IMG/VR virus record: IMGVR_UViG_3300006803_000046
Location: 1-33,627 of that record
Strand: one strand, 5' to 3'
DNA from: a virus
DNA: 33,627 bases
The position numbers and the translations under genes were made by a program. The notes below the pieces were generated by a model. That model made no database searches. It saw nothing but the letters and a program-made list of their open reading frames with translations, and had not been told where the DNA came from. Of this stretch, positions 1-11,667 are shown in pieces (positions within the stretch are counted from its first letter, which is position 1; each line of letters starts with the position of its first letter).

Positions 1-10
1 ATATAAAATC

Positions 11-205: not shown

Positions 206-312
206 TAGCTGAAGCCGCTGTTCAAGCAGGCTTCGGTATTCTTGGCATGATAATTGCCTTTGCAATTATCTTGCCACTTGCAGGGTTACTCCTGCTCAAC
301 CTTATACCTTAA
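202..312 (+). CDS. Tiny membrane protein, 36 aa
   Basis: The start ATG overlaps the preceding stop (ATGA). The product has one predicted transmembrane helix spanning about residues 10-34 (GFGILGMIIAFAIILPLAG, then LLLLNLIP) and almost no soluble part. Function is unknown. Single-helix mini-proteins like this are common in phage early regions and often act on host membranes, but nothing here shows the target. Confidence 0.5.
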   Translation: MIAEAAVQAGFGILGMIIAFAIILPLAGLLLLNLIP

Positions 313-349
313 TCGCATATCGTTATGCTATTTCGGTATATAAAAAGAC

Positions 350-378
350 TGGACAATTACAGGATACCCCTGTAAAAT
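350..378 (+). promoter_or_regulatory. Promoter with internal inverted repeat
   Basis: A -35 box TGGACA (350-355) and a -10 box TAAAAT (373-378) are separated by exactly 17 bp. The spacer and first -10 bases contain a perfect inverted repeat, TACAGG (358-363) and CCTGTA (369-374) around 5 bp, placed where a repressor would block RNA polymerase. It precedes the SANT/HTH-like gene at 425, so autoregulation is plausible but inferred. Confidence 0.6.
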
Positions 379-424
379 CCTACCCATGCAATCAAGCATA
401 ACACTACTAGAAAGGAAATAAATT

Positions 425-721
425 ATGTCTACTTACACTGATAAAATGGTCAAGCGAATGCGCGATATGGCCCCGCTTGATCTTGATAAGGCTAAAAAAC
501 TTGCCGACGAATTCGGTTCTGTATCTTATCGCTCTATCATCGCAAAGGCTAAAAGCGAGGGCGTTGACTATATCGCTAAAGCTCCTGCTTCAAAGCGGCC
601 CAAAGGCCCAACCAAGCGCGAGCTAGTTGGTGCTATCGAAAAGTCTCTTGGACTGCCTCAGTCAGATCGAGAAAACTTAACGGTTGACGCTCTTAACATG
701 GTTTTAGCTAATCTTGGATAA
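425..721 (+). CDS. SANT/HTH-like DNA-binding protein, paralogue 1
   Basis: This 98-aa protein has the same two-part layout as the genes at 4513 and 6862. An N-terminal helical unit (about residues 3-50) ends in a recognition-helix-like segment SYRSIIAKAKSEGVDY. A basic linker (KAPASKRPKGPTKRE) and a C-terminal helical segment (ELVGAIEKSLGLPQS...LANLG) follow. The unit resembles Myb/SANT or sigma-region-4-like helix-turn-helix domains, so DNA binding is inferred. A ribosome binding site AAAGGA (411-416) stands 8 bp before the ATG. It is the only paralogue in the GC-richer left segment and ties that segment to the rest of the phage genome. Confidence 0.7.
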   Translation: MSTYTDKMVKRMRDMAPLDLDKAKKLADEFGSVSYRSIIAKAKSEGVDYIAKAPASKRPKGPTKRELVGAIEKSLGLPQSDRENLTVDALNMVLANLG

Positions 722-920
722 GATCGCAATAGGTTGCGGTTGGATTGGGGCGGCTTGTATGTCAGTCGCCCCTTTCATTATCGACACGCCAGCAGGTAAG
801 GCTCTGGCAATTGTAGGGCTTGGACTCTTAACGGTGCAGGCTATTTGCAACCGGACAATAAATCTGGTATGCTTAAATCTCATTTCAATACTTGGATTTT
901 CTTATGCACTTTATTTTTGA
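714..920 (+). CDS. Small two-helix membrane protein, 68 aa
   Basis: Two to three hydrophobic helices are visible (IAIGCGWIGAACMSVAPFII, ALAIVGLGLLTVQAI, LNLISILGFSYALYF). The layout with an N-terminal GWIGA and a second TIN-LVCLNL segment recalls small conserved inner-membrane proteins of T4-like phages, from memory only. The TTG at 714 overlaps the stop of the upstream gene and keeps the first helix, so it is preferred over the ATG at 759. The 3' end overlaps the HAD gene. Confidence 0.5.
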   Translation: MDKIAIGCGWIGAACMSVAPFIIDTPAGKALAIVGLGLLTVQAICNRTINLVCLNLISILGFSYALYF

Positions 921-1365
921 TTTAGATGAAACGGTTATCGACTCAAGCCACCGCCAAGGTGAAACGCTTGCGGAATGGATAGCCTTAAACACTCCCGAAA
1001 ATGTGGCTAAGGATACGCTTTTGCCTCTGGCCGACCAGATGCAAAAAGTTTATGATGCTGGTCACACCGTGACGGTTTGCACTAGCAGGGTATTATCTGA
1101 CCACGATTTTGATAGCTTTCGAGCCTTGGGATTACGATTCGATAACATGCTTTCACGCAGTCTATTAGATGGCAATGAAAACCCAGGATCTCTAAAATTG
1201 AGATTGTTGCAAGGCCTTGCAAAACGTCAAGGTATATCATGGGCGCGCTTTTGTCGAACGGCTATGATGTTCGATGATAATCAAGACGTTATTGATACGC
1301 TAAAAAACAATAGCCTCCGCGTTATTAATCCGGTAAACTACAACTCACGAAATAAGGCGGTATAA
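904..1365 (+). CDS. HAD-superfamily phosphatase
   Basis: A 153-aa protein with all HAD motifs. Motif I is DLDET at residues 6-10 (nucleophile D6, acid D8). Motif II is TVCTSR around T60. The motif III lysine is K98 and motif IV is FDDN with D124/D125. The lack of a large cap fits 5'-nucleotidase or polynucleotide-3'-phosphatase-like phage HADs that hydrolyse small phosphate esters. The ATG at 904 is chosen because motif I begins right after it; a TTG at 892 would add four residues. It overlaps the end of the preceding membrane protein gene and is followed within 5 bp by the exonuclease, suggesting one transcript. The exact substrate is not visible. Confidence 0.8.
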   Translation: MHFIFDLDETVIDSSHRQGETLAEWIALNTPENVAKDTLLPLADQMQKVYDAGHTVTVCTSRVLSDHDFDSFRALGLRFDNMLSRSLLDGNENPGSLKLRLLQGLAKRQGISWARFCRTAMMFDDNQDVIDTLKNNSLRVINPVNYNSRNKAV

Positions 1366-1369
1366 AAAA

Positions 1370-2101
1370 ATGACTAAACAATATTTTGCTACAATCGACA
1401 GCGAGACAACTCAAAACGAAAAAGTTGCGGATTTTGCTTGCGTTATCACCGACCGGAAAGGCCGCATTCATGCACAGTGCGCTGTTTTGGTTGACGGTAT
1501 TTTTACCGATTCCGAAAATCATCCGCTCTTTTTTGATAAATCAGCGCCTCGCGATGCTCTATGGTCTAAGGCTTCGGCGGATCGTCGTTATGCCAAATAT
1601 TCTAAAATGGTCGCAGATGGCTCGCGGATGGTCGCCTCGGTCGCGGCGATTAATCGCTGGCTTGAACGTGCCGTCGGAAAATATGACCCGATTTTAACCG
1701 CGTATAATCTTGCTTTCGATGCTGGCAAAATGTCAAATACTGGCATTGATCATACTATTTTTTCTCGCCGCTTTTGCCTCTGGCAGACGGCTTGCGTTAA
1801 ATGGGCTTCAACAAATCAATACAAGAATTTTGTGATGCAAAACCATGCCTTTAATGCGCCCACAAAATTCGGCAACATGACCTATAAAACCAATGCCGAG
1901 GTGATGGCGCGATTCGTTACAGGTCAAGACTTGCCAGATGAACCCCACACGGCGTTGGAAGATATTATCGATTATGAATTGCCAATTTTAAATGCGCTGG
2001 TAAAGCGCGGCAAAATGCAAGATATTATCGATTCGGGTGTGGGCTATAGCTGGAGAGATTACCAAGCAAAAAATCATTTTACTGCAAAAAAGGTTGCATG
2101 A
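1370..2101 (+). CDS. DnaQ-like DEDDh 3'-5' exonuclease
   Basis: A 243-aa exonuclease of the RNase-H fold. Exo I is the D-x-E of TIDSETT (D10, E12). Exo II is AYNLAFDAGK (N113, F116, D117). Exo III is H-T-A-L-E-D (H193, D198), which makes it the DEDDh subtype used in proofreading subunits, ExoI/ExoX and oligoribonuclease-like enzymes. It should degrade single-stranded DNA or RNA 3' to 5' with two metal ions. No polymerase domain is attached. The start ATG follows the HAD stop closely, and the tiny gene at 2103 follows one base after the stop. Confidence 0.85.
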   Translation: MTKQYFATIDSETTQNEKVADFACVITDRKGRIHAQCAVLVDGIFTDSENHPLFFDKSAPRDALWSKASADRRYAKYSKMVADGSRMVASVAAINRWLERAVGKYDPILTAYNLAFDAGKMSNTGIDHTIFSRRFCLWQTACVKWASTNQYKNFVMQNHAFNAPTKFGNMTYKTNAEVMARFVTGQDLPDEPHTALEDIIDYELPILNALVKRGKMQDIIDSGVGYSWRDYQAKNHFTAKKVA

Positions 2102-2102
2102 T

Positions 2103-2210
2103 ATGAAAACGAAAATTCTAGCACTTGCGTTTAAACTTTATATTGCCTATTCCATCACCGCCGATTTTCTGTTAATCTGTGGCATTATCTACTTAATCAT
2201 TGGGGCTTAA
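2103..2210 (+). CDS. Tiny membrane protein, 35 aa
   Basis: The ATG begins one base after the exonuclease stop, and the gene ends one base before the PPK2 ATG, so it fills the gap exactly. The product is one hydrophobic helix (about residues 5-34; ADFLLICGIIYLIIGA at the C end) with a short lysine-bearing N terminus. No function can be assigned. Confidence 0.5.
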   Translation: MKTKILALAFKLYIAYSITADFLLICGIIYLIIGA

Positions 2211-2211
2211 C

Positions 2212-2826
2212 ATGAATCAAATTGAGACTTTACAGGCTGAGTTAAATGAGATTGTCGAAGGGTTGACAGGGCCGGTTGCGGTTCTGTTAGAAGGGCGCGA
2301 CACTGCCGGAAAATCCAGCACGATTCGCGAGGCCACGCATTATTTGCCCATGAATCGCTTTTCTGTTCATTTGAGCAAAAAGCCTAGCAAGCGCACCATG
2401 AAAAATTGGCTTGCTTATTGGGCGCACAAAATGCCACGCGGAAATCAAATCGTTTTTTATGATCGCTCATGGTATTCTCGGGCGATGGTTCAGCGCTTGA
2501 ATGGCTGGTGCTCACCTAAGCAATACGACAATTTTATCAAATCACACAAAATCTGGGAACGTGATCAGAATGTCACTATGATAAAAATGTGGTTATCGAT
2601 TACTGAAGCTGAACAACACCGGCGAATTGAAAAGCGCAAAAAATCACCCTTGACCTATTGGAAATTTTCGCCCAATGATGAGCGCGCGCTTTCCTACTAT
2701 GATGAGATGACCGCGCTTAAAAATGCTTGCATCGATGACGATTGGATTCATGTTGACTACAATAATAAAAAGACTGGTATTGAGAATTTTTTGCGAGAAT
2801 TAATATTTGCATTAGGAGAACAATAA
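2212..2826 (+). CDS. ppk2: Polyphosphate kinase 2 family protein
   Basis: A 204-aa PPK2-fold enzyme. The Walker A loop is EGRDTAGKS (27-35), the Walker B segment FYDRSWYSR (82-90), and the lid with its arginines RRIEKRKKSPLTYWKFSP (137-154), the three signatures of PPK2. The family transfers phosphate between inorganic polyphosphate and nucleotides (NDP/NTP or NMP/NDP). At 204 aa it is shorter than typical one-domain bacterial PPK2 enzymes (roughly 230-300 aa); the trimming is in the terminal extensions, not the catalytic motifs. The ATG at 2212 has a GGGG run 5' of it and is preferred over the TTG at 2200. In a phage its likely use is regenerating nucleoside phosphates from host polyphosphate; that is inference. 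Confidence 0.87.
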   Translation: MNQIETLQAELNEIVEGLTGPVAVLLEGRDTAGKSSTIREATHYLPMNRFSVHLSKKPSKRTMKNWLAYWAHKMPRGNQIVFYDRSWYSRAMVQRLNGWCSPKQYDNFIKSHKIWERDQNVTMIKMWLSITEAEQHRRIEKRKKSPLTYWKFSPNDERALSYYDEMTALKNACIDDDWIHVDYNNKKTGIENFLRELIFALGEQ

Positions 2827-2845
2827 TCGTGCCAACTTTTTCCGC

Positions 2846-2859
2846 GTTTCACGTGAAAC
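2846..2859. promoter_or_regulatory. parS-like palindrome, copy 1
   Basis: GTTTCACGTGAAAC is a perfect 14-bp palindrome equal to the core of the bacterial chromosome centromere parS (consensus TGTTTCACGTGAAACA, bound by ParB/Spo0J). With flanks, 15 of 16 consensus positions match. It lies just after the PPK2 stop in gene-free DNA. ParB binding is inferred; no parA or parB gene is in this window. Confidence 0.65.
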
Positions 2860-2885
2860 ATTTTTTAGCGTCAAAATTTTGGCGC

Positions 2886-2899
2886 GTTTCACGTGAAAC
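2886..2899. promoter_or_regulatory. parS-like palindrome, copy 2
   Basis: A second perfect GTTTCACGTGAAAC lies exactly 40 bp from the first, in the same context (GCG before it, ATTTTTT after it), so a unit of about 22 bp is duplicated. Four helical turns of spacing put both sites on one face of the DNA. Confidence 0.65.
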
Positions 2900-2934
2900 A
2901 TTTTTTGTGAAAAAAACGAAAAAAAGCTTGACAT

Positions 2935-2960
2935 GCCGAAAATTTCGGCGCGGGGGCGCC
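2935..2960. repeat. Adjacent palindromes in gene-free region
   Basis: GCCGAAA-A-TTTCGGC (2935-2949) is a 7-bp-arm palindrome. It runs straight into GGCGC-GGGG-GCGCC (2947-2960). They could be an operator, a transcript hairpin or a replication element. A TTGACA at 2928-2933 precedes them, but no -10 box sits at the right distance. Confidence 0.45.
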
Positions 2961-3149
2961 AGTGCGAAAGCGAAGTGCAAATCCGATTGGTGTTACGCTC
3001 TTGCGGGTCCGAGTACGGGTGTGAGAACCTTAGTCTCCGCACACGATTGCGAAAATTTCTTTTTGATTTTCAGCGCCGGACCGAAAGTGAAAAAGCGATT
3101 TATATTTGACCCCGTGCGCCGTTCCACGAGTGCAAAAACGAAGTGTAAA
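2961..3149. repeat. Imperfect 21-bp direct repeat pair
   Basis: AGTGCGAAAGCGAAGTGCAA (from 2961) recurs from 3129 as AGTGCAAAAACGAAGTGTAA. The copies are 168 bp apart; the three differences are G/A, G/A and C/T. No coding reason is visible. Confidence 0.5.
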
Positions 3150-3180
3150 AGCTACCGCGCGGGGATGTGGCAAACCGAAC

Positions 3181-3210
3181 TTAATTTGACTTAATTGAAC
3201 TTAATTGAAG
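3181..3210. repeat. Three tandem 10-bp iteron-like repeats
   Basis: TTAATTTGAC, TTAATTGAAC and TTAATTGAAG follow one another without gap, giving a 10-bp (one helical turn) periodicity. A fourth related copy, TTAATTTGA, stands near 3345. The arrangement resembles iterons or a DNA-unwinding element. Confidence 0.45.
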
Positions 3211-3324
3211 CAAATAGCCCCCAACCCCGCTCGCCCCGAGCATGAACACGGACTCCCAGTAGGTACATTATAGCGGGTTTTGCAGCAAATTGCAAGAGAT
3301 TTATGGTGGGCAGGGGACAAAAAG

Positions 3325-3338
3325 ACCCCGTACGGGGT
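3325..3338. repeat. Perfect palindrome ACCCCGTACGGGGT
   Basis: A 14-bp perfect GC-rich palindrome in AT-rich surroundings. Its first eleven bases (ACCCCGTACGG) recur in the gene-free stretch near 5776, which suggests a recurring binding site rather than a chance hairpin. Confidence 0.4.
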
Positions 3339-3457
3339 TACACTTAATTTGAAAAAATTTTGCGCCGAGTCTGCAAATAATTCTTGACCCCGAAAGGGCA
3401 AGAGCGGCCCCCGGGAATTAATTTGCGTTTTTTTATGACCAAAAGAGAAGTAAATAT

Positions 3458-3486
3458 TTGACAACCCAAACAAAAGGTATTATAAT
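3458..3486 (+). promoter_or_regulatory. Strong sigma70-like promoter
   Basis: TTGACA (3458-3463), 17 bp, TATAAT (3481-3486): full consensus. It drives the gene at 3511. From 3468 to 3511 the promoter, leader and ribosome binding site form a 44-bp block repeated perfectly at 3794-3837. Confidence 0.85.
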
Positions 3487-3510
3487 ATATCCCATGTTAA
3501 GGAGAATTAT

Positions 3511-3708
3511 ATGTGTAAAAATGAGATAAAATACTTCCGACCAGCAGGGTGGGACTATAAAGAAACTACAGTTAAGTGCGGTCGTACCGATTTCTTTGGG
3601 GATAAGCGTCTGTGTGATAGCTGTATTGATTTGGCTAGAAGCCAGCATGAATATGATATGGAAGCTGATAATGCTTGGCTCCGCTCTGCGGGCTGGGGAG
3701 AACTATGA
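3511..3708 (+). CDS. Small cysteine-rich (zinc-finger-like) protein, 65 aa
   Basis: Cysteines occur as C2, C23 (KCGRT) and the C-x-x-C of LCDSCIDLA, followed by an acidic helix (HEYDMEADNAWL). Such short zinc-ribbon-like proteins are frequent in phages and may bind nucleic acid or protein, but the role is unknown. AAGGAG precedes the ATG at proper spacing, and a consensus promoter lies 25 bp upstream of the gene. The stop overlaps the next ATG. Confidence 0.65.
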   Translation: MCKNEIKYFRPAGWDYKETTVKCGRTDFFGDKRLCDSCIDLARSQHEYDMEADNAWLRSAGWGEL

Positions 3709-3776
3709 TTACCAGTTTTGATTTCTGGAAAGTTGTGACCATATTAATTGGGCTAATATATTTCGTTGTAGGGTAA
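3705..3776 (+). CDS. Possible 23-aa membrane peptide
   Basis: The ATG overlaps the stop of the zinc-finger-like gene (ATGA). The peptide is a single hydrophobic helix (FWKVVTILIGLIYFVVG). It ends just before the next promoter. Its small size makes the call uncertain, but coupling and composition match other mini-membrane genes of this phage. Confidence 0.35.
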   Translation: MITSFDFWKVVTILIGLIYFVVG

Positions 3777-3783
3777 AAAGTTG

Positions 3784-3812
3784 TTGACTCTAAAAACAAA
3801 AGGTATTATAAT
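3784..3812 (+). promoter_or_regulatory. Strong promoter, duplicate of the one at 3458
   Basis: TTGACT (3784-3789), 17 bp, TATAAT (3807-3812). Bases 3794-3837 repeat 3468-3511 exactly, including the leader and the AAGGAG ribosome binding site, so two neighbouring transcripts start with identical 5' ends. Confidence 0.85.
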
Positions 3813-3838
3813 ATATCCCATGTTAAGGAGAATTATAG

Positions 3839-4003
3839 ATGAAACCAGGAACTTTTCGTAGCTGGTTGGAGCGTAAGTGGCAAGAACATATTGATGAAGT
3901 TGATATGTTTGAGGGTACAATGCCCAACTACAGTAAAAAATGTTACTTTAATAAATACAAGTATTGGTTGGTTCGTGAATTTAAGCATGAGATAGGGAGA
4001 TAA
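3839..4003 (+). CDS. Small basic hypothetical protein, 54 aa
   Basis: Starts with an ATG behind the duplicated AAGGAG leader. The protein is rich in W, K, R and aromatic residues (SWLERKWQEHIDE; YFNKYKYWLVREFKHEIGR), looks helical and soluble, and is recognised as no family. It is followed one base later by the metallopeptidase-like gene. Confidence 0.55.
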   Translation: MKPGTFRSWLERKWQEHIDEVDMFEGTMPNYSKKCYFNKYKYWLVREFKHEIGR

Positions 4004-4004
4004 T

Positions 4005-4445
4005 ATGAATACAATGGACAAGATGGATTTGTGTTTATTAACTATTGATGTAGTTAACGATTACTTCCAAAAAAGCGTAGATAGATGGCAGAAAGAACAA
4101 CAGTTCGAAGTGCCTCGCATTAATTTAGCAATATCTGAAATGGATGCTGATAGATATGCAGAGCTAGATACAGTAGATGCATTTCACGAATATACAGTTA
4201 CACTGAATAAGTTGTGGATGCTTGAGAAAGATTTAGACACAGAACTTCTAGTAGGTATTGTAGCGCATGAATGTGTACATGCCTTCCAACTAACTAGAGA
4301 AGCTATAGAAGAGTTTCCTAGTAGTGGTAAAAGTGGTAATCCTTATTGGTTTTGTGAGTATGAGATAGAGGCACGTGGGTATGAGAGAGCATTCGTATGG
4401 TTAGTAAATAAAAAAGTTAAGAAGCTTAGAAAAAAAAGTTCTTGA
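4005..4445 (+). CDS. HExxH zinc-metallopeptidase-like protein
   Basis: A 146-aa protein with the zinc-binding motif H-E-C-V-H (H88, E89, H92) on a predicted helix (LLVGIVAHECVHAF), followed by EYEIEARGYE (E118-E127), where a third metal ligand of gluzincin type could lie. The first 80 residues are helical and acidic. This matches the minimal catalytic core of small metallopeptidases (SprT/ImmA-like in size, exact family not determined). A protease could process a phage protein or destroy a host regulator; that is inference. The ATG follows the previous stop by one base. Confidence 0.6.
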   Translation: MNTMDKMDLCLLTIDVVNDYFQKSVDRWQKEQQFEVPRINLAISEMDADRYAELDTVDAFHEYTVTLNKLWMLEKDLDTELLVGIVAHECVHAFQLTREAIEEFPSSGKSGNPYWFCEYEIEARGYERAFVWLVNKKVKKLRKKSS

Positions 4446-4470
4446 CATTTAACTAAAATGCTACTATAAT
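4442..4470 (+). promoter_or_regulatory. Strong promoter before SANT/HTH-like gene 2
   Basis: TTGACA (4442-4447), 17 bp, TATAAT (4465-4470), in the phage's recurring context TTCTTGACATTT. The -35 box overlaps the stop of the metallopeptidase gene. Confidence 0.85.
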
Positions 4471-4512
4471 AGTTTACATAAATTAAAGAAAAAACAAAAA
4501 ACAAGGAATTTT

Positions 4513-4812
4513 ATGATGAGTAATTACACAGTAGAGCAAGTTGAAGAAATGGTAGCAGCATATAGCGAGAACCCTTCACGAGAAACAGTTTCTTTCTTCG
4601 CAGAGAAATTTGAAAAGACAGACCGCAGTATCATTGCTAAGTTAGCACGAGAAGGCGTATATCAAGCACAAGTTGCTGTAAAAAAGACTAGTGGAGTAAC
4701 TAAAGACTCTTTAGTACAAACTATTGAAGCTCAATTAGGTGTAGAACTGCCTTCACTAACAAAAGCTTCCAAAGTAGATTTAGAGGCCTTGGTACTTTCC
4801 ATTGGTAACTAA
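4513..4812 (+). CDS. SANT/HTH-like DNA-binding protein, paralogue 2
   Basis: The clearest member of the family (99 aa). The N-terminal helical unit is YTVEQVEEMVAAYSENPS, then FFAEKFEKTDRSIIAKLA with the recognition-like end REGVYQ. A short linker and a C-terminal module (TKDSLVQTIEAQLGVELPSL, then KVDLEALVLSIG) follow. The N part resembles SANT/Myb or sigma-4 HTH; the C part is unassigned but shared with the copies at 425 and 6862. AAGGA precedes a double ATG (4513 and 4516); the second gives the better spacing. It sits alone behind a consensus promoter, suggesting strong early expression. Confidence 0.75.
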   Translation: MMSNYTVEQVEEMVAAYSENPSRETVSFFAEKFEKTDRSIIAKLAREGVYQAQVAVKKTSGVTKDSLVQTIEAQLGVELPSLTKASKVDLEALVLSIGN

Positions 4813-5113
4813 GCTTAGAAAATCTACTTCTCTAAAGAGCTTTGACCTAGAGGAAGCTGTACGTCAGAAAGGCTACGGCTTCCAAATAGAGTTTGAGGGA
4901 GATATTGACTCCTCGGAGCATCATGCAAGAGATACCATTGTGTCAAACGTATGCTTTTGGAGTAACATACCTCAGTTTGATTTAGAGCAGTTAGCATATA
5001 AGGCTCCTAGCCAGATGGGAAACCTCTCTAGAGTGCATTGTAAGGTGTTATCAGTATGGGATCGGCCCTCGGTTCAGTATATTGTGATCAATACATGGAA
5101 AAAGGAACTGTAA
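4802..5113 (+). CDS. Hypothetical protein, 103 aa
   Basis: No family recognised. The frame begins at a TTG (4802) overlapping the end of the SANT-like gene, runs open for 103 codons and ends at 5113 where the next ATG begins, so coupling on both sides supports it. The sequence has an acidic middle (EFEGDIDSSEHHARDT) and a beta-rich end (GNLSRVHCKVLSVWDRPSV). No clear ribosome binding site is seen, so the exact start is uncertain. Confidence 0.55.
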   Translation: MVTKLRKSTSLKSFDLEEAVRQKGYGFQIEFEGDIDSSEHHARDTIVSNVCFWSNIPQFDLEQLAYKAPSQMGNLSRVHCKVLSVWDRPSVQYIVINTWKKEL

Positions 5114-5352
5114 TGGAAAGACAGTGGGAAATTAGAGTTATTGAAGAAGACGGGATACTATCTCTTCGAGAGATAACTTTTCATCTAGGGCAGCCATATA
5201 TGGTAGCTACTAAACAGTCTCAATGTTTTTTGACTATTGGAGAATCTGAAGGAACATGGAGATCACTTATAAAGAAAGCTTGTGAGCTTCCGACTATCGC
5301 ATACCCTTTTAATGAGTTTGTACAGTTAGATCTTTTTGACAGCAGAGGCTAA
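5113..5352 (+). CDS. Hypothetical protein, 79 aa
   Basis: The ATG at 5113 overlaps the preceding TAA (TAATG) with AAAGGAA just upstream. The product has beta-strand-rich segments (QWEIRVIEEDGILSLREITF, QPYMVATKQSQCFLTIG) and is followed by a small GAGGC/GCCTC hairpin across its stop. Function unknown. Together with the upstream gene it may encode a coupled pair of similar-sized partners. Confidence 0.55.
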   Translation: MERQWEIRVIEEDGILSLREITFHLGQPYMVATKQSQCFLTIGESEGTWRSLIKKACELPTIAYPFNEFVQLDLFDSRG

Positions 5353-5520
5353 GGCCTCGGGGAGTAGCGGGCCGCCTCACAAAAAAGGGCCTCGCACTAA
5401 TATTTATATAAATCATATATCCACATATGCTTTATATAAGTAAGTAGTGTTACTGCTCAGTTTTAGGCCAGGTTTCTGAATATCAAAAAACCTCCAACAA
5501 ATTAAATAAGGAGAAGCTTA

Positions 5521-5739
5521 ATGGCTGTTAAATTTAAACCAAATGAAATTATTCTGGATAGAGCTACGAAAGTAAAGACAAAGAAAGTTTTTCCTATAGC
5601 AGGAGTTAAAGCTTCTGAGCTCCTAGAACTATGTGCAAAACCTGAATCTGACTTACGAAGAGGGGAACGAAAAACCCGAGCAAAAGCACGAGTAGAACTA
5701 GCAAAACGAGGTATTGATTTCTCTAGGTCTGTAGTGTAA
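5521..5739 (+). CDS. Small basic hypothetical protein, 72 aa
   Basis: A good ribosome binding site (AAGGAG) precedes the ATG. The protein is rich in K and R (ATKVKTKKVF; SDLRRGERKTRAKARVELAK) and could bind nucleic acid, but no domain is recognised. No promoter is seen in the 168 bp upstream (5353-5520), which hold an AT-rich stretch with repeated TTTATATAA words. It is the last gene before the structured-RNA region. Confidence 0.55.
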   Translation: MAVKFKPNEIILDRATKVKTKKVFPIAGVKASELLELCAKPESDLRRGERKTRAKARVELAKRGIDFSRSVV

Positions 5740-5752
5740 CTACGTGAACACG

Positions 5753-5769
5753 CTAGTTTCCAAAACTAG
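5753..5769 (+). terminator. Hairpin after the 5521 gene
   Basis: CTAGTTT-CCA-AAACTAG forms a 7-bp stem 13 bp past the stop. The T-rich tract follows only after about 35 bp (near 5803), so this is a possible 3' hairpin rather than a standard intrinsic terminator. Confidence 0.35.
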
Positions 5770-5837
5770 AAATTGCGGTGCAACCCCGTACGGACCTGCC
5801 TATTTTTTAATTTTTTAACCTTTGGTTAAAATATTTC

Positions 5838-5866
5838 TTGACAAATATGGTTAGTCGAAGTATAAT
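5838..5866 (+). promoter_or_regulatory. Consensus promoter of structured RNA A
   Basis: TTGACA (5838-5843), 17 bp, TATAAT (5861-5866): a perfect consensus promoter with no sizeable gene downstream before the terminator at 6253-6290. Confidence 0.85.
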
Positions 5867-5872
5867 ATATAC

Positions 5873-6290
5873 TTATTCAAAAGATAGTTCCATGCCTGAA
5901 ATATGGTTGGATGGTCACTCGGAAGACTATAAAAACCGTATCTTGTTTATGGGCTTTATAAACAGGACGTCTGCCCCTTAAGGATTGGGGACTCGATAAT
6001 GTATTAATCCCTAAGTCTTGCAGGACACTTTGAGTCCCTAAGGAGTTATGCATCACTGGAAACCTCCTACAATTAAAAAAGTTCCGGGTGGGTTACTCCT
6101 ATTATAGCCCTACCAAGTGTGACGGGAGTAGCAAGTATGATCGTAGGATGGGGTTCATACAACCCTCTCGTAAAGAGAGGAGATAGACTCGATAAATTGC
6201 TAGTAATTGCTAAGAGTCTTTAAAACAATAGCTCATTGAACTATGTTTATGGCCCTCACTGGAGTTTTCTCCTCTGAGGGTCTTTTTTTA
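5873..6290 (+). ncRNA. Structured RNA A, about 420 nt, unassigned
   Basis: A transcript bounded by a perfect promoter and an intrinsic terminator with no gene longer than 29 codons. Many stems can be seen by eye. ATATGGTT (5901-5908) pairs AACCGTAT (5934-5941), enclosing ATGGTC/GACTAT (5911-5916/5925-5930). A 9-bp hairpin is 5942-5950/5958-5966. GGGACTC (5988-5994) pairs GAGTCCC (6032-6038), competing with CCCC (5974-5977) for the G run. CCTCTC/GAGAGG is 6064... no: 6164-6169/6175-6180, and AGACTC/GAGTCT is 6185-6190/6214-6219. GACTCGATAA occurs twice (from 5990 and 6186). I do not recognise a known RNA class. Three short frames (5892-5981, 6048-6107, 6137-6223) are an alternative explanation; only the last has a reasonable ribosome binding site. 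Confidence 0.65.
6253..6290 (+). terminator. Intrinsic terminator of RNA A
   Basis: CCCTCA (6253-6258) pairs TGAGGG (6275-6280), with an inner GGAG-TTTT-CTCC stem (6261-6272), followed directly by TCTTTTTTT. A textbook intrinsic terminator. Confidence 0.85.
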
Positions 6291-6313
6291 TGCCACCTAT
6301 CTGTAAAAAGTTC

Positions 6314-6342
6314 TTGACATTCAATCCAAAATCTCTTATAAT
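6314..6342 (+). promoter_or_regulatory. Strong promoter
   Basis: TTGACA (6314-6319), 17 bp, TATAAT (6337-6342) in the context TTCTTGACATTC. It starts about 25 bp after the RNA A terminator and drives the genes from 6379 on. Confidence 0.85.
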
Positions 6343-6378
6343 TCATTTTTCACCTGAAAAATATTTTTGGAAAATTTT

Positions 6379-6543
6379 ATGACTACGAAATATTCATACT
6401 CCTATGAGGAGCTATTTGAAGATATTCCTGGGGACGATGAGCATATTGCTTTTATTGTACCCGCAGAGATTTTGGATGAGGTAGCTGACTCTTCTTTTAA
6501 AGTTAAAGTAGAGAAAGGTATTGTAGTAATCCAAATCACATAA
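6379..6543 (+). CDS. Small acidic hypothetical protein, 54 aa
   Basis: First gene behind the 6314 promoter. The acidic N-terminal half (YEELFEDIPGDDEH) is followed by strand-like segments (IAFIVPAEIL; FKVKVEKGIVVIQI). The ribosome binding site is weak (TTGGAAA). No family recognised. Eleven bases separate it from the next ATG. Confidence 0.55.
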   Translation: MTTKYSYSYEELFEDIPGDDEHIAFIVPAEILDEVADSSFKVKVEKGIVVIQIT

Positions 6544-6553
6544 GAGAGAAATT

Positions 6554-6850
6554 ATGTCCAATATACTTGAATTTCCTATCGAACGAACCCTAAAAAACAG
6601 ACTAGACGTAGCATCTTCTCAGCTAGAGGAGTACTATGATGCTCTTGGCAGAATGGAGATGCTAGCATATACCCTTGAGGAGCAAGCTTTAGAAGTTGAA
6701 GAAGGCTATAAGCATTTGCTGAATCGGTATATAAAAATTGTAGGGCTTGAGAATACGGAAGCACGATACCTAGAGTACGGGGTCGTAACAGTTTATTCAG
6801 ATGAAGAAGGTAACTTTACCTTAGAAGCACCACTTAACCCTAACGACTAA
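6554..6850 (+). CDS. Coiled-coil-like hypothetical protein, 98 aa
   Basis: The first 65 residues form long amphipathic helices (LDVASSQLEEYYDALGRMEM; AYTLEEQALEVEEGYKHLL); the last 30 look like a small beta hairpin (GVVTVYSDEEGNFTLEAP). GAGAGAAA precedes the ATG. Function unknown. It is followed by SANT-like paralogue 3 in the same transcription unit. Confidence 0.6.
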   Translation: MSNILEFPIERTLKNRLDVASSQLEEYYDALGRMEMLAYTLEEQALEVEEGYKHLLNRYIKIVGLENTEARYLEYGVVTVYSDEEGNFTLEAPLNPND

Positions 6851-6861
6851 AGGAGAGAAGG

Positions 6862-7203
6862 ATGAATTATAGTCAGGAGGAGTCTCAGGTACTCATCCAA
6901 GAGTATGAAAAAAATCCATCAAAAGAAACGGTCGAAGCACTTGCTGAGAAGTTTCGAAAAAGCACTAAATCCGTAATCGGAAAACTAAGCAGAGAAGGAG
7001 TCTACAGACGAGAAGTTTATAGATCCAAAACTGGGGATGTGCCGATTACAAAAGTAGAAATCGTAACATCTATAGCAGATATGCTAATGTGCGAACCAGA
7101 ACACCTACAAGGGCTTGATAAAGCCCCAAAATCCTCATTAAAAGCTCTTGAAGACGCCTTACGCGGGGTCAGAGCGGGAAAAGAAATTATCTTCCAAGAC
7201 TAG
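6862..7203 (+). CDS. SANT/HTH-like DNA-binding protein, paralogue 3
   Basis: 113 aa, same architecture as paralogues 1 and 2. The N unit is YSQEESQVLIQEYEKNPSKE then LAEKFRKSTKSVIGKLS with REGVYR at the end of the putative recognition helix. The C unit is ITKVEIVTSIADMLMCEPEH then KAPKSSLKALEDALRG. It carries about ten extra C-terminal residues. AAGGAGAGAAGG lies before the ATG. It shares the core signature (S-V/I-I-x-K-L-x-R-E-G-V-Y) with paralogue 2 more closely than with paralogue 1. Confidence 0.72.
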   Translation: MNYSQEESQVLIQEYEKNPSKETVEALAEKFRKSTKSVIGKLSREGVYRREVYRSKTGDVPITKVEIVTSIADMLMCEPEHLQGLDKAPKSSLKALEDALRGVRAGKEIIFQD

Positions 7204-7211
7204 GATGAAAA

Positions 7212-7232
7212 GGGTAGGAACTAAACCTACCC
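7212..7232 (+). terminator. Hairpin after paralogue 3
   Basis: GGGTAGG (7212-7218) and CCTACCC (7226-7232) form a 7-bp stem eight bases after the stop. Only AAATTCATT follows, so it is a weak terminator or a processing/stability hairpin. Confidence 0.5.
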
Positions 7233-7373
7233 AAATTCATTCAAATCTAATAAAATCTGCAAAGATTACCCTCCCCATACGGAAAAGACCATAAAAACCC
7301 CGTCGCGAATTGGGCATGGTTGTGGGAATTAAAAAAGAAAATTGTAGTTAAGGCTTGATGTAATTGATGCGGG

Positions 7374-7600
7374 ATCGTAACAATTATTGTGCTTTTACGG
7401 GATTAAGACGATTAGGTCAGAATCAGTACATAAGCACGAATTGTTAGATTGAATGTTGGGTTTTGACTAGCTCATCATATCTTGCATAAATCCCGTAGTA
7501 GAGTGACGCCTTATCTTTCAGTAGAACGGCGTCACACTTGTACGAAACAATGCATTACGATTTTGCTAGTTTAGGTTTGTAAGAAAAGTGACTTACCTGA
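7374..7600 (+). ncRNA. Structured RNA B with a pseudoknot, unassigned
   Basis: No gene lies between 7204 and 7744. TAACAATT (7378-7385) plus TGTGCTT (7388-7394) pair AAGCACG (7432-7438) plus AATTGTTA (7439-7446), 15 base pairs with a 2-nt bulge. Inside that loop, TACGGGATT (7396-7404) pairs perfectly with AATCCCGTA (7489-7497) outside it, forming an H-type pseudoknot. GTGACGCC (7503-7510) then pairs GGCGTCAC (7528-7535), and GTAAG/CTTAC (7579-7583/7592-7596) makes a last hairpin. ATCGTAA (7374-7380) can alternatively pair TTACGAT (7555-7561). No clear own promoter or T-run is seen, so the ends and possibly the strand are uncertain. The class is not recognised. Confidence 0.6.
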
Positions 7601-7744
7601 TTAATCTTACGATTTAGAAATAAATTATAACATACGTTTTGGCATAACACAAGTAATATTTTTGAGCAGGTATACGGTTATCCGAACTGGAAAGGAAAGA
7701 GGTTACTAAAAAATATTTAAACTGAGGAGAGGTAAAAAAATATC

Positions 7745-7773
7745 TTGACTTTTTTCGTTCTTTCGTGTATAAT
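7745..7773 (+). promoter_or_regulatory. Strong promoter
   Basis: TTGACT (7745-7750), 17 bp, TATAAT (7768-7773). The roughly 145-nt leader that follows contains small hairpins (CGAG/CTCG at 7788-7802 and CGTG-TAAG-CACG at 7814-7825) before the gene at 7927. Confidence 0.8.
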
Positions 7774-7926
7774 ATGTGGTAAGAAATCGAGAAGAGAACT
7801 CGTAGAACATCTCCGTGTAAGCACGCCACGTTAATCAGATGGATCTAATGCCGGGTGTAGGTTTTATGGCTTTTTCCTCTTTCAAAAAAAGCTTTCTCAA
7901 AAACTTATTAGAAAAAGGAGACACCA

Positions 7927-8076
7927 ATGCCAGGAATCATTATTGCGATGATCTTAGTAGGAACTGTGCTGGTAAAAGATGGAAATCGAAAACTGGACGA
8001 AAAATGTGCCCAAGAAGTGTTAGATGGTATTGCTGAGTCACATCAGGAGTGTCGTCGCTACTATATGAGTAAGTAA
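7927..8076 (+). CDS. Small protein with N-terminal membrane helix, 49 aa
   Basis: AAAAGGAGA precedes the ATG. A short hydrophobic N terminus (GIIIAMILVGTVLV) is followed by a charged tail with two cysteines (KCAQEVLDG; QECRRYYMSK). It may be an exported or lipid-facing mini-protein. Unknown function. One base separates it from the next ATG. Confidence 0.5.
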   Translation: MPGIIIAMILVGTVLVKDGNRKLDEKCAQEVLDGIAESHQECRRYYMSK

Positions 8077-8077
8077 T

Positions 8078-8278
8078 ATGCCAAATTTTAAAGAAATAGA
8101 GCAGGATTTAACAGAATTAAACGGAGAAGGAAACCGGGAGCGGGGTCGCAACGGGGAAGAATTACCGTGGAGCTACGAAGAAAAACGAGACAGGAGGAAA
8201 GAAGCAGAAAAGGATTACATGGAAATTGTACTTCCTTTAGAAATTGCACCTACTGTGATTGGAATATGTGTGGAATGA
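8078..8278 (+). CDS. Small charged hypothetical protein, 66 aa
   Basis: Highly charged helical protein (FKEIEQDLTELNGEG; RGRNGEELPWSYEEKRDRRK) with a short hydrophobic end (IVLPLEIAPTVIGICVE). It contains one of the GCGGGGTC words. The stop overlaps the ATG of the following gene (ATGA). No family recognised. Confidence 0.5.
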   Translation: MPNFKEIEQDLTELNGEGNRERGRNGEELPWSYEEKRDRRKEAEKDYMEIVLPLEIAPTVIGICVE

Positions 8279-8580
8279 AGGAACTTCTGCAAAAATTGGA
8301 AAGTGGAATAATTATACTTTGCTTTCGAAAGCTGGAAGGACCGGAGCGCAATATGGTCTGTACTACCAATCCTCGATATATTCCTGGATCTCCAAAAGTT
8401 GGAAAACAATCCCCTGAGAGCAATACCTTTGGAATGTACGCACTCGATGTGTGTGCGTGGAGAGATGTACTCAAAAGCACAATTCTACACTGGAGAGAAG
8501 CTCCTGTGACCGATGATGGCTATGTAAATACGAGTGTAAGTGGAGAGATCCCGACATGGTTAAAAGTAACAATCAACTAA
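8275..8580 (+). CDS. WYL_2/DUF2693-like SH3-barrel protein
   Basis: 101 aa. The pattern L-L-x-x-L-E-x-G-I-I-I-L-C-F-x-K-L-E-G, followed by R-N-M-V-C-T and an NPRYIPG turn, then L-D-V-C-A-W-R and a short C-terminal part, is that of small phage SH3-barrel proteins annotated as DUF2693/WYL_2, common in T4-like phages. The molecular role is unknown; ligand- or RNA-binding has been suggested for WYL-type barrels. The ATG at 8275 overlaps the upstream stop. Confidence 0.6.
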   Translation: MKELLQKLESGIIILCFRKLEGPERNMVCTTNPRYIPGSPKVGKQSPESNTFGMYALDVCAWRDVLKSTILHWREAPVTDDGYVNTSVSGEIPTWLKVTIN

Positions 8581-8605
8581 AACAAATTAATAGAAGGAGA
8601 ACCCA

Positions 8606-8782
8606 ATGGTTCGCGAAATCGACAGCATCACAATTTACTTCGCAAATAACGGAGCCTACCTTGAATACTCAGACAACGGAGGAGACCGAGGGTATCAAAG
8701 CCATCGAGAAGTTTACCCCTCCGTCTTCGACGCCTGTACAGCAATAGAAAGGCTTTATGATGAAACAAAGAACGAAGACTAA
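8606..8782 (+). CDS. Small hypothetical protein, 58 aa
   Basis: AAGGAGA precedes the ATG. An acidic soluble protein with a beta-like N terminus (IDSITIYFANNGAYLEYSD) and a helical end (VFDACTAIERLYDETKNED). A longer open frame in the next phase (8556-8747) overlaps it but has low-complexity T/Q/S content and no ribosome binding site, so this frame is preferred. Function unknown. Confidence 0.5.
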   Translation: MVREIDSITIYFANNGAYLEYSDNGGDRGYQSHREVYPSVFDACTAIERLYDETKNED

Positions 8783-9023
8783 ACTTACACCGCTCGAAGT
8801 AACCGCAGCAAAAAGATCTTGGATGCCAGGAGTATCTGTGCGAGTGCATAGCGATCATCGAGGATCGGCAAAAGATTGGTGTAAAAACCTAGTGAGTAAG
8901 GAACTTCTGGACAAAGAAAACTATCATATGGTAATCTATACGAATGTATACGAAGATACCTTTCACTTTCTTTCTCCTCTCGTCGCACAAAGCTTTGCAA
9001 TGGAATTTAATGGAAAACTTTGA
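8757..9023 (+). CDS. Hypothetical protein, 88 aa
   Basis: Starts at a double ATG inside the end of the preceding gene. The N terminus is basic (KQRTKTKLTPLEVTAAKRSW), followed by SVRVHSDHRGSAKDWCKN and an aromatic tail (YEDTFHFLSPLVAQSFAMEF). It could be a small nucleic-acid-binding or enzyme-like fold, but no family is recognised. It overlaps the following gene by 14 bp. Confidence 0.5.
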   Translation: MMKQRTKTKLTPLEVTAAKRSWMPGVSVRVHSDHRGSAKDWCKNLVSKELLDKENYHMVIYTNVYEDTFHFLSPLVAQSFAMEFNGKL

Positions 9024-9279
9024 TCAGTGGGAAACACATATGGAGGTGCGCCTTACAATAGTTGCGGAAGAGCTTATTGAAATGCACTATAATAAGAGAG
9101 TATCTGAGCTAAGTAAAGAAGAAATTCAAGAACTTGACAATTTTGCATTTATGCATAATAACTCCGTCCTGTGTTACGGCCTCCGCCGTAATATTAGAAG
9201 ATGGGAAAAAGCTCATAAAACTACCGTAGATGGTGGGGAATATTTAAAAGAACTTAATCTACGGGAAGGAGAAGATTAA
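9010..9279 (+). CDS. Hypothetical helical protein, 89 aa
   Basis: All-helical and acidic (ELIEMHYNKRVSELSKEEIQ; NNSVLCYGLRRNIRRWEKAH). The ATG at 9010 is chosen as the first in-frame ATG near the end of the upstream gene; an ATG at 9040 (MEVRLTIVAEEL) is possible. The gene closes the 7745 transcription unit, because a new promoter follows at 9304. Confidence 0.5.
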   Translation: MENFDQWETHMEVRLTIVAEELIEMHYNKRVSELSKEEIQELDNFAFMHNNSVLCYGLRRNIRRWEKAHKTTVDGGEYLKELNLREGED

Positions 9280-9303
9280 AGACTATAGAGCCAAACAAAA
9301 TTC

Positions 9304-9332
9304 TTGACATTTATACTAAATTCTTGTATAAT
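9304..9332 (+). promoter_or_regulatory. Strong promoter
   Basis: TTGACA (9304-9309), 17 bp, TATAAT (9327-9332). The spacer ends in AAATTCTTG, the element shared by many promoters of this phage. It drives the run of small genes from 9359 to 11265. Confidence 0.85.
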
Positions 9333-9358
9333 ATCCTCTTACAAGAAAAGGAGTGGAA

Positions 9359-9592
9359 ATGATTGTTCATATTATTTTAGACCCAGAGCAGATGGAAGTA
9401 GTATTTATGTCGCCTTCAAACGTAGCTTTTGGCAAGTATATTGCGAACTTAAGAGATGAAATGATTGCGGATGACATGATCGAAGAAGACGGTGACTTTA
9501 GTGACAATGATATCTTAGAGATGTATGGCAATTGGTACTACGATTGTTACAATACTGACGAAACAGATGGCTGGGAGGAAGGTAACTGGTAA
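9359..9592 (+). CDS. Small very acidic protein, 77 aa
   Basis: AAAGGAG stands 6 bp before the ATG at 9359; a GTG at 9353 would add two residues. The protein is beta-like at first (VHIILDPEQMEVVFMSPS) and strongly acidic later (DDMIEEDGDFSDNDILEMYG; DETDGWEEGNW). Such acidity suggests a DNA mimic or protein-binding inhibitor, but that is only a guess. The stop overlaps the next ATG. Confidence 0.6.
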   Translation: MIVHIILDPEQMEVVFMSPSNVAFGKYIANLRDEMIADDMIEEDGDFSDNDILEMYGNWYYDCYNTDETDGWEEGNW

Positions 9593-9828
9593 TGGAAGAT
9601 AAGACTTTCGATGAGCTACTAGAGAGTGTGAAAGAGATGGACAATATGATTATGGATGCTAACGAATTAAGGTATAGATTTGCAAAGTTAGCAGAAGACG
9701 AATTCAGTTATTCGTATGTGTTAAAAGCGCTACTAGCAATGATGACACAGGCCGAATTAAAGGAGTATTATGACTATTTCAATCAACTTCATCCAGGAGT
9801 TTACGATGAAGACGGAAATCATATATGA
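9592..9828 (+). CDS. Small acidic helical protein, 78 aa
   Basis: Starts in the TAATG overlap with the previous gene. All-helical, acidic (TFDELLESVKEMDNMIMDAN; MTQAELKEYYDYFNQLHPG). Unknown family. It overlaps the next frame by four bases. Confidence 0.55.
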   Translation: MEDKTFDELLESVKEMDNMIMDANELRYRFAKLAEDEFSYSYVLKALLAMMTQAELKEYYDYFNQLHPGVYDEDGNHI

Positions 9829-9845
9829 TATTAGTGGGAGAAACA

Positions 9846-10073
9846 ATGAAAGATAGATTTGTACTAGAGCAGAACATAATGAACTGCTGGGAAATAATTG
9901 ATGATCTTCAACTATTATCAGAGAATATCATAGATAGTGATAGGTATAATCTGAGCACAGAAGAAGAAGAACGTCTTACCAGAAAGCTTGATGGAATTAA
10001 AGAACTTTATGAGATGAGATTTGATAGAATGTGGGATACCTTTGAGGAGATGATAAAACATGGACAACTATAG
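9846..10073 (+). CDS. Small acidic helical protein, 75 aa
   Basis: The ATG at 9846 has GGGAG at suitable spacing; an in-frame ATG at 9825 (MILVGET) overlapping the upstream stop is the alternative. The protein is helical with alternating charges (LDGIKELYEMRFDRMW). Unknown function. It overlaps the next gene by 14 bases. Confidence 0.55.
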   Translation: MKDRFVLEQNIMNCWEIIDDLQLLSENIIDSDRYNLSTEEEERLTRKLDGIKELYEMRFDRMWDTFEEMIKHGQL

Positions 10074-10185
10074 CTGGGAAGAAGAGCTGAAGTTTGCACG
10101 AAGAATGACGTGGCTAACAATTATTAACACGGTATGCTTATTCGCTTTTATGGGCGTCTTTGTATATACGATGGCTGCAGGGTAG
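10060..10185 (+). CDS. Tiny membrane protein, 41 aa
   Basis: A charged N terminus (NYSWEEELKFARRM) precedes one transmembrane helix (WLTIINTVCLFAFMGVFVYT). GAGGAGATG lies upstream inside the preceding gene. The orientation is likely N-in by the positive-inside rule. Unknown function. Confidence 0.5.
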   Translation: MDNYSWEEELKFARRMTWLTIINTVCLFAFMGVFVYTMAAG

Positions 10186-10189
10186 AAAA

Positions 10190-10294
10190 ATGACGTACAA
10201 AGAAGAACTTTCTATAAAATTTTGGAAAGGATTTCTTATGGGGTACTTAACAGGAATATTATTATTAGTAGGAATATACGTTATATTTAGCTAA
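10190..10294 (+). CDS. Tiny membrane protein, 34 aa
   Basis: Four bases after the previous stop. A short polar N terminus (TYKEELSIKFWKG) is followed by one transmembrane helix (FLMGYLTGILLLVGIYVIF). It looks like a sibling of the 10060 gene (charged N end then one helix), perhaps a duplicated or paired membrane factor. Confidence 0.5.
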   Translation: MTYKEELSIKFWKGFLMGYLTGILLLVGIYVIFS

Positions 10295-10311
10295 ATCGGA
10301 GCGGGGTTACT

Positions 10312-10524
10312 ATGAGCTGGAGCTACAGAATAATTAAAAAAGAAAAAGGTGATGCGGAGTGGTACGGCATTCACGAAGTTTTCTATGATGACGATGGCAA
10401 GCCTGAAATGTGTACGGAAGATCCAATCACATTAGAAGCAGAGTCTATGGAAGATTTTGATTGGATGTTAAGTCAATTTAAAATTGCAACCAATCAACCT
10501 TGGCTGAATTTTAACGACTTTTAG
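10312..10524 (+). CDS. Hypothetical protein, 70 aa
   Basis: Begins SWSYRIIKKEKGDAEWYGIH and continues with EVFYDDDGKPE, a pattern I have seen in small conserved phage proteins of unknown function. Beta-rich first half, helical end (MEDFDWMLSQFKIA). The GGAG upstream is 10 bp from the ATG. One base separates it from the next gene. Confidence 0.6.
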   Translation: MSWSYRIIKKEKGDAEWYGIHEVFYDDDGKPEMCTEDPITLEAESMEDFDWMLSQFKIATNQPWLNFNDF

Positions 10525-10525
10525 A

Positions 10526-10726
10526 ATGTATATAGTACATACCTTTTATAACAGAAAAACCGTGCATACCTATAAGTATCTAACACTAGAGGAAGCTTTT
10601 GGTGATTATAATACTTATACTTTTGCAGGTCTGAAAGAAGGTACTCCGTATAAATGCAAAAAAGCTCTTTATGTTAAAATTGGGGACAAATACTTTCGAT
10701 ATGAAGAAAATTTTAAAGGGGGCTAA
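10526..10726 (+). CDS. Hypothetical protein, 66 aa
   Basis: Aromatic and lysine-rich beta-like protein (YIVHTFYNRKTVHTYKYLT; KKALYVKIGDKYFRYEEN). No family recognised. The ATG follows the upstream stop by one base, and a GGGGG run just before its own stop could serve as ribosome binding site for the next gene. Confidence 0.5.
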   Translation: MYIVHTFYNRKTVHTYKYLTLEEAFGDYNTYTFAGLKEGTPYKCKKALYVKIGDKYFRYEENFKGG

Positions 10727-10729
10727 TAT

Positions 10730-10885
10730 ATGAAATGGCTAGGGTATGCTTTTTGGATATTCTATATAATTATACAGGGCGGAAAAGTACTCGATACGAC
10801 ATCTCCAGAGATGGTTATTATAATAGTCGGAATGATGTTTGGATTGATTGTGTTCCCCCTAACTTTTTTAGTTGAGAGCGATTAG
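10730..10885 (+). CDS. Small two-helix membrane protein, 51 aa
   Basis: Two hydrophobic helices (LGYAFWIFYIIIQGG and MVIIIVGMMFGLIVFPLTFL) joined by a short polar loop. AAGGGGG stands before the ATG. Function unknown. The stop codon overlaps the GTG of the following gene. Confidence 0.5.
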   Translation: MKWLGYAFWIFYIIIQGGKVLDTTSPEMVIIIVGMMFGLIVFPLTFLVESD

Positions 10886-11265
10886 TGAGCATAGACGAAG
10901 ATATTAAAGAGAAGTTTGAGGGAAGTACTATGAGCAAGGCAGGCCGTCTTGCCATGGAATTAACTGCGGAACGAAAGCGGTTGAAACAAGAAATGACAGA
11001 GCTTCAGATGGAAGTAGAGGATTTAAAGCCTACTACTCCTACGGGGACTATTGACAGTTATGTAAAATGGGCTGCTACAATTTCTGCGGTTACTGGAATA
11101 TTTCTACAGCAGGCAGACTTACTCATTGCAGGACAATCTCTGTATGCACTAAGTGCTCTATGTTGGATTTATGTTGGGAGTATATGGAATGATAAAGCCA
11201 TTATGATTGGCAGTGCTATATCAGGTACAGCCGTGTTACTAACATTAACGAAGTACTATTCTTAG
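10885..11265 (+). CDS. Membrane protein with coiled-coil N terminus, 126 aa
   Basis: About 50 residues of charged helix (LAMELTAERKRLKQEMTELQ) likely form a coiled coil. They are followed by two or three hydrophobic helices (WAATISAVTGIFLQQADLLI; LYALSALCWIYVGSIW; IGSAISGTAVLLTLT). The GTG at 10885 overlaps the previous stop; the ATG at 10930 is an alternative. It is the last gene of the rightward early region; the tRNA follows ten bases later. Confidence 0.6.
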   Translation: MSIDEDIKEKFEGSTMSKAGRLAMELTAERKRLKQEMTELQMEVEDLKPTTPTGTIDSYVKWAATISAVTGIFLQQADLLIAGQSLYALSALCWIYVGSIWNDKAIMIGSAISGTAVLLTLTKYYS

Positions 11266-11274
11266 GTATTGGAA

Positions 11275-11351
11275 GGGCTTTTAGCTCAGATGGTTAGAGC
11301 ATCCGACTCATAATCGGCAGGTCCAAGGTTCAAATCCTTGAAGGCCCACCA
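11275..11351 (+). tRNA. tRNA with CAU anticodon, Ile2-like or Met
   Basis: A complete 77-nt cloverleaf with encoded CCA. The acceptor GGGCTTT pairs AAGGCCC (one G-U), the D arm is GCTC/GAGC, the anticodon stem CCGA/TCGG has loop CTCATAA (anticodon 11309-11311), and the T arm is CAAGG/CCTTG. The CGACTCATAATCG context and GGTTCAAATCC resemble E. coli tRNA-Ile2, whose C34 becomes lysidine to read AUA, more than elongator tRNA-Met; the assignment needs comparison. It lies where rightward and leftward genes converge. Confidence 0.93.
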
Positions 11352-11352
11352 C

Positions 11353-11667
11353 CTATGGTACTCCATCCAAAATAGTAATATTTGCGTCCGACCCAAGTAT
11401 TGTTAATTCTACCTTATAGCTAGGAACTACTACTTGCACATCAAACGTATCAACCAAGATACTATCAACACTATAAGAAGACGGGGCAGTAGATCGTACT
11501 GATACACTGGCTTCAATATTCGTAGGGTTTGCAGTTACAATTGCAGAGTACGTCCCTGCAGTTGTAATCTCGATATCTTGTGCAGAGTAATATTTATCAA
11601 AAATACCCCCTCTCCAACCACGAGTTGCAAGGGATATTCTCCTACCAATGCCAGTATGGCTACTCAT
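11353..11667 (-). CDS. Virion/tail-associated protein, 104 aa
   Basis: Threonine/serine/valine-rich, Ig-like beta pattern (IEITTAGTYSAIVTANPT; ASVSVRSTAPSSYSVDSILV), typical of tail or baseplate decoration proteins. It begins with a glycine-rich RRISLATRGWRGGI segment. It is the last gene of the leftward structural operon, and its stop lies two bases from the tRNA CCA end. The start ATG overlaps the stop region of the upstream gene. Confidence 0.6.
   Translation of the reverse strand: MSSHTGIGRRISLATRGWRGGIFDKYYSAQDIEITTAGTYSAIVTANPTNIEASVSVRSTAPSSYSVDSILVDTFDVQVVVPSYKVELTILGSDANITILDGVP

Follow-up and report, generated by a model that had tools for sequence, protein, structure and literature searches.

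Results

A predicted transcription unit beside a tRNA gene in a T5-like phage

The stretch of DNA analyzed here (the window) makes up a 33.6 kb virus record. It comes from a marine virus of bacteria, and a split NAD-dependent ligase, a D5-like regulator and a DnaB-like helicase mark this virus as T5-like. The annotated phage collection contains nothing closely related to it at the DNA level. A gene for PPK2 (polyphosphate kinase 2; Pfam, 127 bits) is also present in this T5-like phage, at 2200–2826. The region of interest, 5838–6290, follows an ORF (5521–5739) whose end is overlapped by a tRNA-Trp gene (5725–5800), and it contains no ORF of at least 60 amino acids within its predicted transcript, which we call RNA A.

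Neighbor-gene searches led to a second contig, L002, that carries a diverged RNA A homologue at 13993–14412. The homologue is identical in L048, and a contig of 95.8 kb has this RNA region without a single difference. The window and L002 have the same gene order: a 5521-like gene, a promoter, the RNA, a terminator, a further promoter, and 6379-, 6554- and 6862-like genes. The tRNA-Trp gene is absent from L002. A second conserved noncoding stretch, downstream of the gene at 6862–7203 (7290–7740 in the window, 15480–15960 in L002), has long invariant blocks (CTCATCATATCTTGCATAAATCCCGTAGTAG and others) and may be either an RNA or a DNA element.

RNA A is preceded, on the plus strand, by a sigma-70 promoter (5838–5866) that matches the consensus at 12 of 12 positions (TTGACA-17-TATAAT) and has a counterpart in L002, TTGACA-18-TATAAT at 13962. 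At its other end is an intrinsic terminator (6251–6290; GGCCCUCA...UGAGGGUC followed by a T run), in which a stem of 6251–6258 with 6275–6282 precedes TTTTTTT; it is kept in L002 and has a probability of 1.00 in both sequences. A simple terminator scan missed it, probably because of an internal loop in the stem. Both signals had been noted in a preliminary description of this DNA, and both hold up in the second phage. With the start placed from the promoter, RNA A would extend from 5873 to 6290 on the plus strand (~418 nt), and the signals argue that 5838–6290 is a single transcription unit with its own start and stop. The promoter had been singled out as perfect; the match is indeed exact, but it is nothing special, as positions 1–12000 of the window contain five perfect promoters (3458, 4442, 5838, 6314 and 9304) and three that are near-perfect. 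It is ordinary for this region, marking RNA A as a unit of its own without being a surprise in itself.

Constraint acts on the RNA rather than on a peptide

Could the unit instead encode micro-proteins? An ATG at 6137 has GGAG eight bases upstream, and the 28-codon frame that it opens (6137–6223) is still open in L002, in which 10 nt have been inserted and 1 nt deleted (net 9). However, the differences between the window and L002 in this frame are spread 11/13/12 over codon positions 1/2/3, and its changed codons comprise 2 synonymous against 16 nonsynonymous, whereas the neighboring genes are enriched for differences at position 3 (20/18/41, 20/11/30, 29/19/43 and 21/18/50). The 29- and 19-codon frames, as read from the alignment, are broken in L002. 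With no codon-position bias and no sign of purifying selection on a reading frame, a small protein gene was rejected, and we consider it very improbable that RNA A encodes micro-proteins. The earlier preference for an RNA over micro-ORFs is thus upheld, both by these frames and by the compensatory changes described below; constraint on RNA, rather than on a peptide, appears to account for the region.

Comparison with a single diverged homologue

The 3′ part of RNA A lies in a block of ~76% identity (369 aligned columns) that extends past the terminator, and the middle is far more diverged. A covariance model built from window positions 6020–6162 alone scored L002 at 74.7 bits versus 39.7 bits for a sequence-only model of that stretch, a gap that is indicative, because information per position is not the same in the two models. 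In the model alignment, which was itself fitted to the model, both sequences have standard pairing at 23 of 23 pairs, and in 6 of these both partners have changed; in a control with the partners displaced by one to three columns, 0–1 double changes were left. The comparative evidence comes from two distinct sequences, too few for covariation by the standard of R-scape.

Further relatives were sought in several ways. Searching 50,697 phage records by blastn with RNA A and its homologue gave either nothing or matches that a promoter stretch of 44 bases produced by chance. Five pattern scans, four over viral contigs and one over GTDB genomes, returned only the known homologue; the other matches, inspected in their context, did not have the sequence that should surround the pattern. 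Neighbor-gene searches around RNA A found the same relative only, a DNA search of 16 related viral records matched the L002 record and the identical contig of 95.8 kb and no other, and covariance models R1 and R3, run over up to 21 loci, found no third homologue. Within the window's own record there is no second copy of RNA A and no long antisense match to it.

As for known families, RNA A has no match in Rfam 15 at gathering scores; at a relaxed threshold there were sub-gathering matches only, never to one family common to both homologues. Membership of GOLLD, ROOL or another Rfam family was rejected, as no covariance-model match was obtained. A group I intron was likewise rejected (no Rfam match up to E 10), RNA A being intergenic with its own promoter. 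A tmRNA was rejected too: ARAGORN and Rfam found no tmRNA in the window, and in L002 a distinct tmRNA exists alongside RNA A, a permuted (alpha-type) gene at 16171–16551 with the tag ANDVYEQELALAA (Rfam RF04321, 107.8 bits).

A conserved fold with an H-type pseudoknot

The minimum-energy fold of 5873–6291 is −128.2 kcal/mol versus a mean of −107.7 for shuffled sequences (z −3.57; 0 of 100 dinucleotide shuffles were as low), and the L002 homologue has a z of −2.35. For the helices, we compared those that are possible in both sequences at matching places. By pairing probabilities in both sequences, helices Pd and Pf and the terminator are near certain, and pairing-preserving double changes occur in Pc1, S1 and Pe. 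Folding the window by itself gives a minimum-energy structure whose middle domain is not the one that the two sequences share.

RNA A contains an H-type pseudoknot (6041–6087, plus strand), formed by S1 (6041–6045 with 6064–6068), S2 (6056–6061 with 6082–6087) and an A-rich loop 3 (6069–6081). For S1, the window has AGGAG/CUCCU and L002 has UCCAG/CUGGA, with 3 of 5 pairs changed on both sides. For S2, they have CUGGAA/UUCCGG and GUCGGU/ACCGAU, respectively, with 4 of 6 pairs so changed when counted on hand-defined helices, as MAFFT places the S2 arms about one column off. Together, 7 of 11 pairs are doubly changed, and the loops are of similar size (10, 2 and 13 nt in the window; 9, 2 and 11 nt in L002). 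By broad criteria, each variable region has exactly one H-type pseudoknot, in the same place, a coincidence reached by 5 of 4000 dinucleotide-shuffled sequence pairs under criteria set after the helices had been seen. From the paired changes, the fold with its pseudoknot appears to be conserved although the letters have diverged.

Since a type III toxin-antitoxin system can be countered by pseudoknot RNAs from phages (PMC3475682), RNA A could conceivably serve as a decoy or mimic an antitoxin, like the pseudo-ToxI RNA that phage PhiTE deploys against ToxIN, with the RNA A pseudoknot binding a host defense RNase. Both RNAs are phage-encoded and have an H-type pseudoknot, which in RNA A is conserved and has an A-rich loop. 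However, antitoxins of the ToxI type are short tandem pseudoknot repeats acting on ToxN, whereas in RNA A a single pseudoknot is embedded in a large fold. Tandem repeats of a type III antitoxin were rejected on the same grounds, one pseudoknot per variable region and no Rfam match, and we regard the decoy reading as improbable.

The remaining helices, all on the plus strand, vary in how well they agree between the two phages. Downstream of the pseudoknot, Pd (GUUACUCC/GGAGUAGC; 6092–6132; probabilities 0.97 and 0.90) closes a conserved loop that includes AGCCC (6106–6110). Pe (GUAUGA/UCAUAC; 6135–6160), whose loop includes the conserved AGGAUGGGG, is GGUAUGU/ACAUACC in L002, with one compensatory change. 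Pf (AGACUC/GAGUCU; 6185–6219) has probabilities of 1.00 and 0.97, and in Pg (AAAC-A-AUAG/CUAU-GUUU; 6223–6248) L002 has ACAG/CUGU for AUAG/CUAU, one U-A to C-G change as read from the alignment. Directly upstream of the pseudoknot, Pc1 (GGAC/GUCC with loop ACUUUGA; 6023–6037) is CAAC/GUUG in L002, with 2 of 4 pairs doubly changed.

The 5′ third is weakly supported: with a covariance model of this domain, L002 reaches just 16.6 bits, and several pairs are broken. In our model Pb stands and Pa and Pc0 are tentative. Hairpin Pb (5942–5966), with an invariant 7-nt loop, GGGCUUU (5951–5957), is paired in both sequences (probabilities 0.90 and about 0.5), with one double change and one broken pair in L002. 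Pc0 (GGAUUGG/UUAAUCC; 5982–6010) has a 7-pair hairpin of different letters in the same place in L002 (UGUACAG/CUGUGUA), and its thermodynamic probability is low in both sequences. Pa (5901–5908 with 5934–5941; feature 5901–5941), which encloses a GGUC/GACU hairpin, was one of two helices for which the preliminary description had looked to compensatory changes; five pairs with one such change remain in L002, which is moderate agreement only. The other, Pe2 (CCUCUC/GAGAGG; 6164–6180), did not bear out the expectation, as L002 has a different hairpin there. The strongest helices are others, above all those of the pseudoknot, which that description had overlooked. It had also pointed to an internal repeat, GACTCGATAA; this does occur at 5990–5999 and 6186–6195, but it is not a conserved feature, because only the second copy is recognizable in L002.

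The Pb loop GGGCU (5951–5955) is complementary to the Pd loop AGCCC (6106–6110), so that a kissing contact is possible; as both loops are invariant, covariation leaves the contact unproved. An invariant 6-base palindrome, GACGUC, could be a dimerization site.

Competing pairings and the downstream genes

Competing pairings for one G-run, noted earlier from the window, do exist, but the fold of the middle domain predicted from the window alone departs from the structure that the two sequences have in common. Such pairings raise the possibility of a cis-acting leader: RNA A could be riboswitch-like, or a domain bound by a protein, and its alternative pairings could control the 6251–6290 terminator and with it readthrough into 6379–7203. 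RNA A lies directly upstream of three co-directional genes that are conserved with it in L002, and both sequences can form GGGUUA/UAGCCC versus GUUACUC/GAGUAGC, AGACUC/GGGUCU versus a terminator arm, and UAGCAA/UUGCUA (UAGCAG/CUGCUA in L002). However, most of these alternatives do not vary between the two sequences, and in the fold their probability is close to zero. Moreover, the downstream genes (6379–6543, 6554–6850 and 6862–7203) have a separate consensus promoter on the plus strand at 6314–6342 (12 of 12), with a near-perfect counterpart at 14437 in L002, placing it between terminator and start codon in both phages. As this promoter would make attenuation redundant, we think a leader unlikely.

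Discussion

In our preferred reading, to which we give a probability of roughly 0.7, a lineage of marine T5-like phages encodes RNA A as a structured noncoding RNA that stands alone and acts in trans. The separate promoter, the strong terminator and the conserved compact fold are what argue for a folded object acting in trans. In this model, host sigma-70 RNA polymerase would transcribe RNA A strongly, probably early in infection, and the folded transcript would be compact, with the Pb loop (GGGCU) docked onto the Pd loop (AGCCC) next to the pseudoknot. RNA A would then act as a folded object, not as a message or leader: it may bind or titrate a protein of the host or of the phage, or engage in RNA-RNA assembly as ROOL and GOLLD do.

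RNA A is most likely nearest in kind to these two RNAs, though outside their families. Both are encoded by phages, often in the vicinity of tRNAs, and use kissing loops to assemble (PMC12286853); homo-oligomeric assembly from RNA only is a mark of the two families. Like RNA A, ROOL is phage-encoded, lies near a tRNA gene and has pseudoknots or kissing contacts, without a known protein partner or function (PMC12286853); however, it is 659 nt long in the described example and occurs in many phages, whereas RNA A, at ~418 nt and without an Rfam match, is known from two phage lineages. GOLLD is also phage-encoded near tRNAs, and its 3′ part is conserved and its 5′ part variable (PMC12286853), but it often exceeds 800 nt, and RNA A does not match it in Rfam.

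What might such an RNA be for? Counter-defense would, by analogy, be the most plausible purpose. The suggestion is reasonable because a T5-type tRNA-rich region counters retron defense via a strongly expressed tRNA from a strong promoter (PMC11555353). The published case resembles ours in its T5-like phage and strong promoter; the counter-defense RNA there is tRNA-Tyr (PMC11555353), whereas RNA A is no tRNA.

At other marine phage loci that have a neighboring gene in common with this one, the noncoding stretches are different, and some of them follow consensus-like promoters (L010 and L025), which fits a fast-changing cassette. In the marine phage contigs L010 (18690–18870) and L025 (16115–16440), a promoter-like site, an ORF-free stretch and a terminator-like hairpin follow one another, and these stretches are not recognizably related to RNA A. 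In L006, a tandem repeat, CTCGGAGTAAACGTTATTCAAA, lies at 5490–5610, upstream of a promoter-like site. L008 has a structured noncoding stretch at 14565–14780 (z −3.85) that has only the GACUAUAAAA motif in common with RNA A; we judged the shared motif (GACUAUAA) too short to support a claim of homology. A bolder proposal, which we hold as doubtful, is that RNA A represents a new compact family of phage RNAs, a folded object that self-assembles via loop contacts or disarms a host defense protein, in a T5-like cassette where relatives carry unrelated promoter-driven noncoding units.

Few large structured RNAs of unknown function are known from phages, and they are difficult to find. With its own transcription signals, a comparatively supported pseudoknot and a defined T5-like neighborhood, RNA A offers a concrete structural model, and the tRNA-rich region of marine T5-like phages may be a place to look for more such RNAs.
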